Position numbers and translations under genes: made by a program
Notes under the pieces: model-generated
Databases searched by the model: none
Seen by the model: the letters and a program-made list of their open reading frames with translations, nothing else
What the model was told of the DNA's origin: nothing
Shown: positions 5,358 to 10,694 of the stretch, in pieces
Layout: each line of letters begins with the position of its first letter
How positions within the stretch are numbered: position 1 is the first letter of the stretch
Origin: Opitutales bacterium
GTDB taxonomy: Bacteria; Verrucomicrobiota; Verrucomicrobiia; Opitutales; UBA953
DNA: 32,037 nucleotides
Assembly (NCBI GenBank): GCA_017546455.1
Contig: JAFYWY010000060.1
Span: 1-32,037, forward strand
Direction: 5' to 3'

Positions 5358-6932
5358 TTAGCCGCGGGTCGCGCCCGGAGCCGTTTTGATTTCGACGATA
5401 TCGTGCGGAGCGGATTCGCGCTGGCCGGCCGGCGTAACGCGGATGAAACGCGCACGTTCGCGCAAGGTCTTCAGGTCCGGAGCGCCGAGATAGCCCAAGC
5501 CGCTTTGGACACCGCCCGCAAGCGTAATCAGAATCTGGTCGACGCTGCCGGAAACTTCCTTGAGAGCTTCCACGCCTTCCGCCGCCACCTTCGTGACCTT
5601 GCTATTGCGCAGGTCGTGACCGTAACGCGCCGCCGAGCCCTGGCGCATCGCTTCGAGCGAGCCCATGCCGCGGTATTCTTTGTAAAGTTTGCCGTTGATT
5701 TCCATGATCTTGCCCGGGGCTTCCTTGCAACCTGCAAGCATACCGCCGAGCATCACGCAATCGGCCTGCGTCAGCGCCTTCACGATGTCGCCCGACTTCG
5801 TAATGCCGCCGTCCGCGATAATGCGCACGCCCTTTTTCTTCGCAGCCTGAGCGGAAACATAAAGCGCCGTGAGCTGCGGAATCCCGACACCGGCGACGAT
5901 GCGCGTCGAGCAAATCGAGCCGGGGCCCTGACCGATTTTAACGGAGTCTGCACCCGCGTCGGCGAGGAATTCAACGCCTTCGCCGCTCGTAACGTTACCG
6001 GCGACAATCGTCAGATCCGGGAAATGAGAACGCACGAAGCGCACGCATTCGCCGACACCTGCCGAATGGCCGTGCGCCGTGGAAATAATGACGGCATCGA
6101 CGCCGGCGGCAACGAGGTTGGAAACGTGTTCGTTGAGCGCATCGTAGTTAACGCGTCCGTCCGGATAACGCGGAACGGCGACGGAAGCACCGCAACGCAA
6201 ACGGAAGTTTTCATCGCGCGAAGGACGAATCGCGTCCGTTCCGGCCTCATCGCGGATGCGTTCGATGTCGGAAAGCGTAAACAAGCCGCGGAGCTGTCCC
6301 TTTTCGTTGACGACGAGCAGCTTGTTCGTGCCGATGTGTTCGAGGAAAATACGGTCGGCCGTTGCAATCGGATCGCCGCCGAGATCCTTTTCCTGGATCG
6401 TCAGAACCTGTTCGCGCGGAATCATCACATCGGCAACCTTATGTGCTGCGTGACGGCTCTTAACGACACCGCCGCGGAGAAGGCCGAGCAGAACGCCGTT
6501 TTTGTCAACAACCGGGAATGTGGAGAAATTGTAGTCGTGCGCTTCGATCATCGCAAGCACGTCGCCGACCGTAATATCCGCAGGGACGGTCGCCGGACGG
6601 TCAATCATGCCGTGGATGTACGTTTTGACGCGGCGGACCTTCTCAATCTGGTCGGCGTTCGACATGTTGTAGTGGATCATGCCGATCCCGCCGTGAAGCG
6701 CCATGGCGATGGCCATCGTGGATTCCGTCACCGTGTCCATGTCGGCGGACATAATCGGGAGCGAAAGCGCGATTTTGTCGGAAATCGACGTGTCGAGGCG
6801 CGTCATGCGCGGAAGCACGTCGGAGAAGCAGGTCGCGAGCGAAACGTCGTCGTAAGTCAGACCCGTTCCCGCATTCGCGGCAAAAAAGTCGTCGGAATTC
6901 TTGTAGAATTGATCGTCAATGTGCATTGCCAT
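5358..6932 (-). CDS. guaB: IMP dehydrogenase
   Basis: This enzyme oxidises IMP to XMP with NAD+, the first committed step of GMP synthesis, in the cytoplasm. The N-terminal barrel half contains [10 protein letters not shown] and the substrate region [16 protein letters not shown]-pair (Bateman) domain occupies roughly residues 110-240. The catalytic loop is GPGSICSTR with Cys341, followed by [14 protein letters not shown] and the phosphate-binding MLGGMLAG. Length (524) is a little above the usual ~490 because the CBS region is slightly expanded. The start was chosen at the first ATG; another lies two codons inside. It ends in a clear terminator. The decayed Rhs fragment lies immediately upstream, so its promoter must lie in or near the 118 bases between them. 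Confidence 0.96.
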
Positions 6933-7049: not shown

Positions 7050-7891
7050 CTAAAGAATCGCAATTACACAATTTGCTCCCAATAAACACATACAAATTCC
7101 ATCACCTTGTTCTTCGATGGGGTCGCGGGAGAGGAAGCGGCCGAGCGAAGGTGAGTAGTGGCGGTAGTTGTAGTAAACAAGGTCGAGCTCGGAATCGTAA
7201 TGTTCCGAAGACCATTGGAAGGGTTGGGTGACGTCACCGGAAGCAGTGACAGCGCCGAAGGGCGCGTAGGAATACGCCGTTCGGATGTAGCCGGCCGGTC
7301 CGAAGACTTCGCAGATGTTTTTCGTGAGGTCGTAGCCGTAGGTGAACCACGTGCCGTCTTTTTGAATCGCGAGCGGACGCGTCGCCGTCGCTTGCGACGG
7401 TTCCCAAGTCGTCAGCCACAGGTCCGGCTGCCCGGAGCGCGTCATATCGACCGCCGCGATTTGAAAATACCCGCGATAGATGTAGCGGTGATGCAGCGTA
7501 ACCGTTCCCGAGACCGTTACTTTCTTGAAGTAGCGCCGACCTTGCGAGTCGTAGCCGCAGTCGATTGTCGTATCGCTTTCTTCATTACGGAAACGCACCG
7601 GGCGGTTCGCGCCGTTGTAAGTGATTTGCCACGTTCCCGTGAAGGTTTGAATCAAAGTCGCGTTTCCGTCGGCGTCATATTCGGGAGCGAATGCGTGCTT
7701 TGCGTTCCCGTTTCGGTTGCAGAGTTTCTGTTGCCGATGTTGTCGAAGGCATACGCGTAGTTGTCCGAGCCAAGCGTCGCGGACGTAAGTTCGCTTCGCG
7801 CGTTGTAGCCGAACGTGTCGTTCTGCGTCGTGCCGTTTCTCGCCGTCGAGCGTCTTGCAAGTATTGTCGTATAGAAAGCGCAAAAATTCAT
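7050..7891 (-). pseudogene. Displaced Rhs/YD-repeat core fragment, frameshifted
   Basis: This is the 3' end of an Rhs core without its 5' part. From 7891 one frame reads Rhs-like (NARSELTSATLGSDNYAYAF, then DNIGNRNSATETG). Near 7690 the frame shifts and continues as EYDADGNATLIQTFTGTW, GYDSQGRRYFKKV, IQKDGTWFTYGYDLTKN, and the family hallmark YNYRHYSPSLGRFLSRDPIEEQG. Near 7105 a second shift takes it out of the expected NLYVFIGS continuation, so the reading frame ends in an unrelated short tail. Rhs proteins carry C-terminal toxins; here the toxin is absent. The fragment begins five bases after the stop of a small gene, matching the known pattern of displaced Rhs remnants that lie behind an immunity gene. 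It is almost certainly non-functional. Confidence 0.85.
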
Positions 7892-7895
7892 AGAA

Positions 7896-8405
7896 TTAAA
7901 TTTCTATCTGAAAGTTTTCCGTCGAGAGCTTCCTTTCATTTTCTTCAACAAGCCTTAAAACTTCTTCGTAGAAAGAATTTCCGTACACAGATGCGACACA
8001 GTATTTCCCGCACCGACTAAGAAATAACTCTGCCGTTCTTCCTTCGAAACTAATTTTCCATGGAGAAGAAAACTCCTGCGTATAGAATTGAACGTCCGGC
8101 TCAAACTCAACAGTTCGAAAACAAGAGCGAAGCTTCCATGTTCTTAGTTGATATTGAAGATGGTCTAAAATTTCGGAATCGCTTACAACAAAACGGATAT
8201 TCACAACCTCGTTCGTTTTTACCTCTCTCTTTCGATAAGTAATAACGGCTTTTGTAATTTTTTCTTCTTCAATGCGCTTAAAAAATGAATCATCAATCTT
8301 AGGAGAAGAAAGCATATCTAACCCTGTCAGAGTAAGCCACCCGATTGGAATCCAAGATGTTCCTAAGAAAAAGCCGATACTTCCAAAAAGAATGTTTCTC
8401 TTCAT
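7896..8405 (-). CDS. Small membrane-anchored protein, possible Rhs-linked immunity protein
   Basis: I do not recognise this family. The 169-residue product has one N-terminal hydrophobic segment (NILFGSIGFFLGTSWIPIGW), then a charged region with a predicted strand-rich middle (ITYRKREVKTNEVVNIRFVV) and a Cys-containing C-terminal part (SRCGKYCVASVYG). Its coding DNA is AT-rich compared with the flanking lepA and guaB. It lies directly upstream of the displaced Rhs fragment on the same strand, where orphan immunity genes often sit in Rhs loci. The immunity role is inferred from position only. Confidence 0.6.
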   Translation of the reverse strand: MKRNILFGSIGFFLGTSWIPIGWLTLTGLDMLSSPKIDDSFFKRIEEEKITKAVITYRKREVKTNEVVNIRFVVSDSEILDHLQYQLRTWKLRSCFRTVEFEPDVQFYTQEFSSPWKISFEGRTAELFLSRCGKYCVASVYGNSFYEEVLRLVEENERKLSTENFQIEI

Positions 8406-8423
8406 GAGAATTTCTTAATGAGG

Positions 8424-8646
8424 TTAAAACATACATGGAATTTTTTCCCATGCACATGCAATATCTTGTCCTTCCTCAAATGCAATCTCCGCAGAACCGG
8501 CAAGCAAAAGAGCACTTTCATAAGTCCCTGTCGGAGTCGTTTTCCCCGATCCCCGCCAAAGCCCAAATTGCACCCGCAATCCCCGCAAACGCCAGCGTCG
8601 AACGCAATATCCACTTCCCGAAGTGTTTTTGTTGTGTTTCTTCCAT
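8424..8646 (-). pseudogene. Short membrane-protein gene broken by a frameshift
   Basis: From the ATG at 8646 the frame encodes a short N-terminus and a hydrophobic segment (KWILRSTLAFAGIAGAIWAL), then stops after 42 codons at 8518. Near the G4 run around 8546-8549 an alternative frame continues as TTPTGTYESALLLAGSAEIA and FEEGQDIACAWEKIPCMF before a stop at 8424. Removing one G would join both halves into a ~73-residue protein. A longer minus-strand frame also overlaps this stretch but is Cys/Arg-rich and looks non-coding. Function is unknown; it belongs to the same small accessory block as the Rhs fragment. Confidence 0.45.
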
Positions 8647-8891: not shown

Positions 8892-10694
8892 TTAGCCTTC
8901 GTTTTTGAGAATTTTGATAAAGGCATCCTGCGGAATCGACACCTTGCCGATTTGCTTCATGCGCTTTTTACCTTCCTTCTGCTTATCGAGAAGCTTGCGC
9001 TTACGCGTAATGTCGCCGCCGTAGCACTTGGCCAAAACGTCCTTGCCGACAGAACCGAGCGTTTCGCGGGCAATAATCTTGCCGCCGACGGCCGCTTGAA
9101 TCGCCACCTTGAAGAGCTGGCGCGGGAGCAAATCCTTGAGGCGTTCGCAAAGTTTACGTCCGTTGGATTCCGCCTTCGTTTCGTGAACGATACTCGAGAA
9201 CGCATCGACTGCCTCGCCGTTGACGAGGATATCGAGCTTCACGAGCTTGCTTTCGACATAATCTCCCAATTCGTAGTCCATCGAGCCATAGCCGCGCGTA
9301 ATGGATTTCATGCGGTCGTTGAAGTCGACGAGAATTTCGTTGAGCGGAAGCACGCAGGAAAGCATAACGCGCTGTTCGTCAATCGTATCGATGTGATCGC
9401 AAATCCCGCGCTTTTCCTGAATGAGCGTCAACATGTCGCCGATACTCGTGCCCGGGATGTGGATGTGCGCGCGAATCGTCGGCTCTTCCATGCGTTCGAT
9501 TTCCGCGGCATCGGGCATGAGCGTCGGATTGTCGACGTAGGTCAGTTTGCCGCCGTTGGAATACACCTTGTAGATAACGCTCGGATAAGTCGAGAGGATG
9601 TCCAGGTCGTATTCGCGACGCAGGCGCTCCTGGATAATTTCCATGTGGAGCAGACCGAGGAAGCCGCAGCGGAAGCCGAAGCCGAGCGCGACGGAGCTTT
9701 CCGCGACATAGGTCAGCGCAGCGTCGTTAATCGCGAGCTTGGCAATCCCCGCCTTAAGCTTTTCGTAGTCCGTCGTATCCAGAGGATAAATGCCGCTGAA
9801 CACCATCGGACGTACTTCCTTAAAGCCCGGCACCGGATCCTTTGCGGGACCGTTTGCGTGCGTCATCGTATCCCCGATTTTCACTTCGGAAACATCACGG
9901 ATATTCGTGACAATGTAGCCGACCATGCCGGGTTCGAGCACGTCCGCCTGCTTCATCTTCGGGGAGAAAATACCGACTTCCTTAATCTGGCTCTTCGCTC
10001 CGGTCGCCATCAGCGAAATCGTGTCGCCGGCCTTGAAAGTGCCCGAGAATACGCGGACGTAGGAAATCACGCCCTTGTAGGTATCGAATTTGGAGTCAAA
10101 AATCAACGCACGCGCGGCGGGATAATCCGACCAACGCGGCGGCGGAACGCGCGTAACGACCGCTTCGAGAATTTCCGTAATCCCAATTCCGGATTTTCCG
10201 GAGGCCAAAACCGCGTCGTCCGCAGGAATCGCCAAAACGTCTTCGACCTGCTTTTTCGCGTGATCCGGCTGCGCACTCGGCAGGTCCACCTTGTTAATCA
10301 CCGGAATGATTTCGAGATTCTGCTGCATCGCCAGAGTCGCATTCGCCACGGTCTGCGCTTCCACGCCCTGCGACGCGTCAATCAACAGGCAGGCGCCTTC
10401 GCAGGATGCCAGCGAGCGGGACACTTCATAGGAAAAATCGACGTGGCCAGGCGTATCAATCAGGTTCAGCAGGTAGGTCTTGCCGTCCTTCGCCAGGTAT
10501 TGCATCGAAACCGGATGGCTCTTGATGGTAATGCCCTTTTCGCGCTCCAAGTCCATCGCGTCGAGCAACTGGTTCTTCATTTGGCGCAGTTCAACCGTCT
10601 GCGTCTGTTCGAGCAAACGGTCGGAGAGCGTCGTCTTCCCGTGGTCAACGTGCGCGATGATACAAAAATTACGAATGAGCGAAATATCCGGCAT
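8892..10694 (-). CDS. lepA: Elongation factor 4 (LepA), back-translocating GTPase
   Basis: LepA is a ribosome-associated translational GTPase involved in initiation and elongation fidelity. The G domain shows the P-loop AHVDHGKTT (about 14-22), G3 DTPGHVDF, and G4 NKVD. It is followed by EF-G-like domains II, III and V and the LepA-specific C-terminal domain with GGDITRKRKLLDKQKEGKKR. Its 600 residues are standard length. The start ATG at 10694 gives the canonical N-terminus (MPDISLIRNFCIIAHVDHG). It lies about 200 bases downstream of infA, behind a terminator, and so is probably transcribed separately. Confidence 0.97.
   Translation of the reverse strand: MPDISLIRNFCIIAHVDHGKTTLSDRLLEQTQTVELRQMKNQLLDAMDLEREKGITIKSHPVSMQYLAKDGKTYLLNLIDTPGHVDFSYEVSRSLASCEGACLLIDASQGVEAQTVANATLAMQQNLEIIPVINKVDLPSAQPDHAKKQVEDVLAIPADDAVLASGKSGIGITEILEAVVTRVPPPRWSDYPAARALIFDSKFDTYKGVISYVRVFSGTFKAGDTISLMATGAKSQIKEVGIFSPKMKQADVLEPGMVGYIVTNIRDVSEVKIGDTMTHANGPAKDPVPGFKEVRPMVFSGIYPLDTTDYEKLKAGIAKLAINDAALTYVAESSVALGFGFRCGFLGLLHMEIIQERLRREYDLDILSTYPSVIYKVYSNGGKLTYVDNPTLMPDAAEIERMEEPTIRAHIHIPGTSIGDMLTLIQEKRGICDHIDTIDEQRVMLSCVLPLNEILVDFNDRMKSITRGYGSMDYELGDYVESKLVKLDILVNGEAVDAFSSIVHETKAESNGRKLCERLKDLLPRQLFKVAIQAAVGGKIIARETLGSVGKDVLAKCYGGDITRKRKLLDKQKEGKKRMKQIGKVSIPQDAFIKILKNEG

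Follow-up and report, generated by a model that had tools for sequence, protein, structure and literature searches.

In a 32,037-nucleotide stretch of an Opitutales bacterium genome (hereafter, the window), we detected the remains of a contact-killing Rhs toxin locus between lepA and guaB in which a single gene, P0001, is still whole. We propose, with a probability of about 0.7, that P0001 once belonged to an Rhs cassette with a phospholipase A2 (PLA2) tip and has outlasted its decay as an orphan immunity gene, and that the Rhs sequence following it is the remainder of the displaced core that came next. On the minus strand, the order is lepA, the start of a 42-residue ORF at 8646, a shift of reading frame with a stop following at 8424, P0001, the Rhs core remnant, and guaB. 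The genes at the two borders are taken to be lepA and guaB, as they are named in the first-pass annotation. The features are:

8892..10694, minus strand: lepA, left border, with orthologues of 88-90% identity in six other genomes of the genus
8518..8646, minus strand: start of the 42-residue ORF, containing a hydrophobic stretch and interrupted by a frame change
8424..8543, minus strand: apparent stump (C-terminal end) of an Rhs toxin tip of the PLA2 type, similar to the end of the tip in the relative G017
7896..8405, minus strand: P0001, intact N-anchored ORF of 169 residues, probable orphan immunity protein
7053..7891 (about), minus strand: Rhs core remnant (TIGR03696), core end only, frameshifted and tipless
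7065..7100 (limits approximate), minus strand: NLYVFIGSK, continuation of the core end in the third frame
5358..6932, minus strand: guaB, right border, with orthologues in all seven other genomes of the genus

The ORF layout and a profile match confirm that a decayed Rhs island lies between lepA and guaB, as the first-pass annotation had claimed. The core remnant is read in two or more frames, first over 7655-7891 and then from about 7700 to 7053, and its residues 206-261 match the NCBIfam model Rhs_assc_core (TIGR03696) far beyond chance, given a score of 59.6 bits against a cut-off of 32.5. It corresponds to residues 1437-1715 of a 1869-residue Rhs protein of the same genus, which is no more than the final part of the core, and an N-terminal delivery part in open frame is absent from the core at 7053-7891. 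The remnant ends in SRDPIEEQG. Past EEQG the frame shifts again, the canonical NLYVFIG being read in the third frame, and beyond NLYVFIGSK no recognisable Rhs sequence or toxin tip was found before guaB. The earlier description of a core fragment with the SRDPIEEQG end and without a toxin is therefore accurate.

Ahead of P0001, the first-pass annotation had placed a broken short membrane gene. Its ORF start at 8646 and the frame change are real; we reinterpret its second half (8424-8543), which, judged from sequence similarity, appears to be what is left of the C-terminus of a PLA2-type Rhs tip. Translated in its own frame, the stretch 8427-8543 aligns with the end of the G017 tip at 50% over 26 residues, a match that none of 2000 shuffles equalled, while 20 of 2000 did so for the match to the tip of G015. 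When a tip profile was searched against 14,453 frames, the stump came out as the fifth-best distinct place (E 0.015), behind two intact tips, the tip of G342 and a tip tail on contig C41 of G015. The stump ends 18 bases ahead of P0001, the position expected for the end of a tip, and it lacks the catalytic Cys-His-Asp stretch present in the G017 and G015 tips. In G015, the stretch preceding the P0001 homologue also resembles the stump, with 1 of 2000 shuffles doing as well; its matches to the tails of the two intact tips are unconvincing (177 and 88 of 2000 shuffles as good), and at the DNA level the sequence ahead of P0001 and that ahead of its G015 homologue reach a local score of 19, below the maximum of 27 in 300 shuffles. 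The stump and this G015 stretch may possibly be akin at the protein level. For the 42-residue ORF start, the best outside match (52% over 21 residues, E 0.22) lies within a 150-residue protein of G017, and this kinship was dismissed as chance.

The relative G017 carries the complete unit, consisting of an Rhs core end, a PLA2 tip and a P0001 homologue 14 bases on. Its tip matches the Pfam family PLA2G12 (PF06951) with 35.9 bits, the cut-off being 34, and contains the motif CNAHDVCYGTC; among solved structures, the tip profile found only 1faz, a bacterial PLA2 (E 0.023). A search with PF06951 was positive in 4 of 372 genomes of the order, two of which exceed the cut-off. The genus has one other intact Rhs-PLA2 tip, on contig C13 of G015; it matches PF06951 below the cut-off, and the gene behind it has no detected similarity to P0001. 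This unlike neighbour disfavours a strict pairing of PLA2 tips with immunity genes of the P0001 type. In G342, which belongs to another family, a PLA2 match stands behind sequence that is Rhs-like by eye. Two further arrangements were observed in the genus. On contig C41 of G015 (L104:3438-3824), a second tip is reduced to its tail, which is fused in frame to an Rhs core fragment. On contig C8 of G017, an ORF (L075:5618-6643) begins like the Rhs N-terminus of G014 and continues, by eye, with hydrophobic, unlike sequence; it stands directly before the core end that carries the PLA2 tip.

P0001 itself is an open ORF with a hydrophobic N-terminus, and it matched no family of the Pfam, NCBIfam and PADLOC libraries at E values up to 1, so that the family seems undescribed in these three collections. 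A scan of genome contigs returned one relative among 88 candidate stretches, in the Opitutales MAG RGIG9148 (L027; 59% over 169 residues), which is the same place as contig C2 of G015 and is counted once; there, the homologue sits between Rhs fragments. At the level of the taxonomic family, P0001 proteins occur in 3 of 79 genomes, the source genome included, and a profile built from these three (A1) recovered the same three among the 372 genomes of the order. No match was found in plasmids, phages or viral contigs. The third member is the gene directly behind the Rhs core end and tip of G017. With a two-sequence P0001 profile, this gene stood out from 2297 ORFs at an E value of 3.8e-6, the next ORF being at 0.82, and hhalign gave an E value of 2.4e-5 with a probability of 75.5. 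The homology is distant, at 27-29% over about 100 residues (29% over 98 residues by BLASTP), and the N-terminal third is poorly covered. Considering that Rhs immunity genes are recognised by their position directly behind a toxin tip, it is this distant homologue that occupies such a position, while P0001 in the window follows a stump only. The proposal that proteins of this kind are encoded behind a toxin tip in relatives is thereby borne out, and the family was not seen to be conserved apart from Rhs genes: all three known places lie inside Rhs arrays. On contig C2 of G015, the P0001 homologue is separated from an Rhs fragment by the gene of a protein with ankyrin repeats (L027:1929-3161). 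This gene, whose product matches Sel1 below the Pfam cut-off, is perhaps another of immunity type.

That P0001 is an ordinary membrane protein unconnected to Rhs would agree with its lack of a Pfam, NCBIfam or PADLOC family, but the three places in Rhs arrays are at differing chromosomal positions, and we regard this explanation as very improbable. Somewhat less remote, and still improbable, is that P0001 is an Rhs immunity protein directed against a tip other than PLA2, the resemblance of the stump being due to chance or to another cassette. The stump is short and its profile E value is only 0.015, and in G015 the PLA2 tip is adjoined by an unlike gene; however, the stump and P0001 independently match two adjacent genes of G017, and they do so in the same order.

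An unlikely explanation, although the most credible of the three, is that the whole interval, P0001 included, is decaying debris and that P0001 is unused and has just stayed unbroken so far. Both its neighbours, the core and the tip, are broken, a promoter scan gave four consensus-level matches in 2 kb where 1.7 are expected, and a terminator was not found. In contrast, P0001 and its 59% homologue in G015 are both full-length, neither of them beside an intact PLA2 tip, and over their 169 codons they differ mainly at third positions (106 differences, against 57 at first and 32 at second positions). With a pN of 0.27 and a pS of 0.82, a value at which synonymous sites are saturated, the codon pattern of the two genes shows purifying selection for at least part of their history, although this constraint may predate the loss of the tips. 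Overall, these results support the reading of a displaced Rhs remnant with an orphan immunity gene, in which the immunity function is what we infer, and P0001 is probably still useful to the cell.

An AlphaFold2 model of P0001, made from two sequences, has a helical N-terminus and an alpha/beta domain, at a pLDDT of 61 and a pTM of 0.57. The best aligned solved structure was 4r7r, a putative Clostridium lipoprotein (Z 10.5, rmsd 2.5, 108 aligned residues), the model being weak at that pLDDT; Foldseek gave no match at an E value of 0.001 or better, and a P0001 profile search of solved structures gave nothing useful (best E 0.083). The predicted fold fits an extracytoplasmic domain and proves nothing.

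The core remnant has many counterparts in the source assembly (2.15 Mb, 105 contigs). Fifteen places match it, 14 of them outside the window on seven contigs (C96, C83, C2, C31, C62, C63 and C67), so that the at least two toxin-related loci of the first-pass annotation do exist and the figure was a large underestimate. Several of these copies have a tip and a downstream gene, and core fragments begin a few bases past such a gene, e.g., on C2. The same core thus recurs as had been anticipated, but a full-length gene was not recovered: the full-length Rhs of G017 used as query gave 19 matches in the assembly, none of them full-length. As several contigs end inside Rhs genes, a full-length copy could sit in the assembly gaps. 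The sole N-terminal match (residues 1-83) is a mini gene of 467 residues on C83 (L021:5917-7320), in which the N-terminal 83 residues of a long Rhs protein are joined straight to a core end, followed by a tip for which Pfam gave no match at E 0.01 and then by a downstream gene. On C96 (L020:4976-6352), an Rhs core carries a tip that matches Pfam Tlde1_dom above the cut-off.

All eight genomes of the genus (G000 and G011-G017) have matches to the Rhs core end, from 2 to 16 per genome. Among the seven in which lepA was found, four have Rhs sequence directly behind it, the remnant of the window counted, which makes this place a recurrent Rhs site; in G012, G014 and G017, it is the N-terminal region of an Rhs gene that starts there. 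The stretches examined behind lepA in G013, G015 and G011 contained no Rhs sequence, the G011 contig ending 1.2 kb past lepA, and in G015 guaB is immediately preceded by an Rhs fragment at a contig end. Around lepA and guaB of five relatives, only these two genes and the Rhs remnant of the window matched; an inversion between an Rhs array and guaB is at most a possible origin of the lepA-guaB junction, the gene order being too rearranged or the compared stretches too short. The T6SS sheath protein (PF05943) was detected in none of the eight draft genomes of the genus, the E. coli control being positive.

Orphan Rhs immunity genes with shown protection have been described at the Rhs1 locus of Serratia marcescens (PMC10539506). 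As in that system, an immunity-type gene without a tip of its own lies beside an Rhs locus; unlike in Serratia, where it stands downstream of an entire Rhs pair within a T6SS cluster, the locus here is wrecked and the genus has no detectable T6SS sheath protein (PMC10539506). In Neisseria cinerea, Nte1 is an Rhs effector with a PLA2-like tip that is delivered by the T6SS and accompanied by the immunity protein Nti1, and its phospholipase domain inhibits growth when it acts in the periplasm, an effect not seen in the cytoplasm (PMC8263058). The likeness to the present case, drawn at the level of description, is that of an Rhs phospholipase tip with an immunity partner. PLA2-fold tips on RHS-repeat proteins have also been classified as Tox-PLA2, for which the table row of that survey lists no immunity partner (PMC3482391). 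Compared with that class entry, the intact relatives here match Pfam PLA2G12, whereas the window retains a tail without the catalytic residues (PMC3482391).

Based on the anatomy of the locus and its homologues, we propose the following scheme. An Rhs array would once have stood behind lepA, and the present interval would be its rump. The Rhs gene there would have carried a C-terminal PLA2-type tip, followed directly by the immunity gene and, after that, by one more displaced cassette, represented by its core end. The delivery part and the core may have been lost by deletion together with the catalytic part of the tip, and the second core would have been wrecked by frameshifts, so that P0001 alone remained whole. 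The protein would be anchored in the inner membrane with its soluble domain exposed to the periplasm, where it could bind and block PLA2-type Rhs tips delivered by relatives. The cell would thereby retain resistance without the weapon.

We also tentatively consider, at somewhat less than even odds, a wider proposal, in which P0001 would be the first member of a so far undescribed family of immunity proteins that are anchored in the membrane, face the periplasm and counter PLA2 Rhs tips of the group-XII-like type. It would have been kept as a stand-alone shield at the place behind lepA where Rhs genes recur, and the Opitutales genus would export its Rhs toxins without a T6SS. The finding draws attention to a genus that is dense in Rhs arrays and in which no T6SS sheath protein was detected. 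It also offers a candidate partner for a toxin type whose row in the table of the 2012 survey has none (PMC3482391). The PLA2 tip of G017 and its neighbour form a testable toxin-immunity pair, and orphan relatives of this immunity gene are present in two other genomes.
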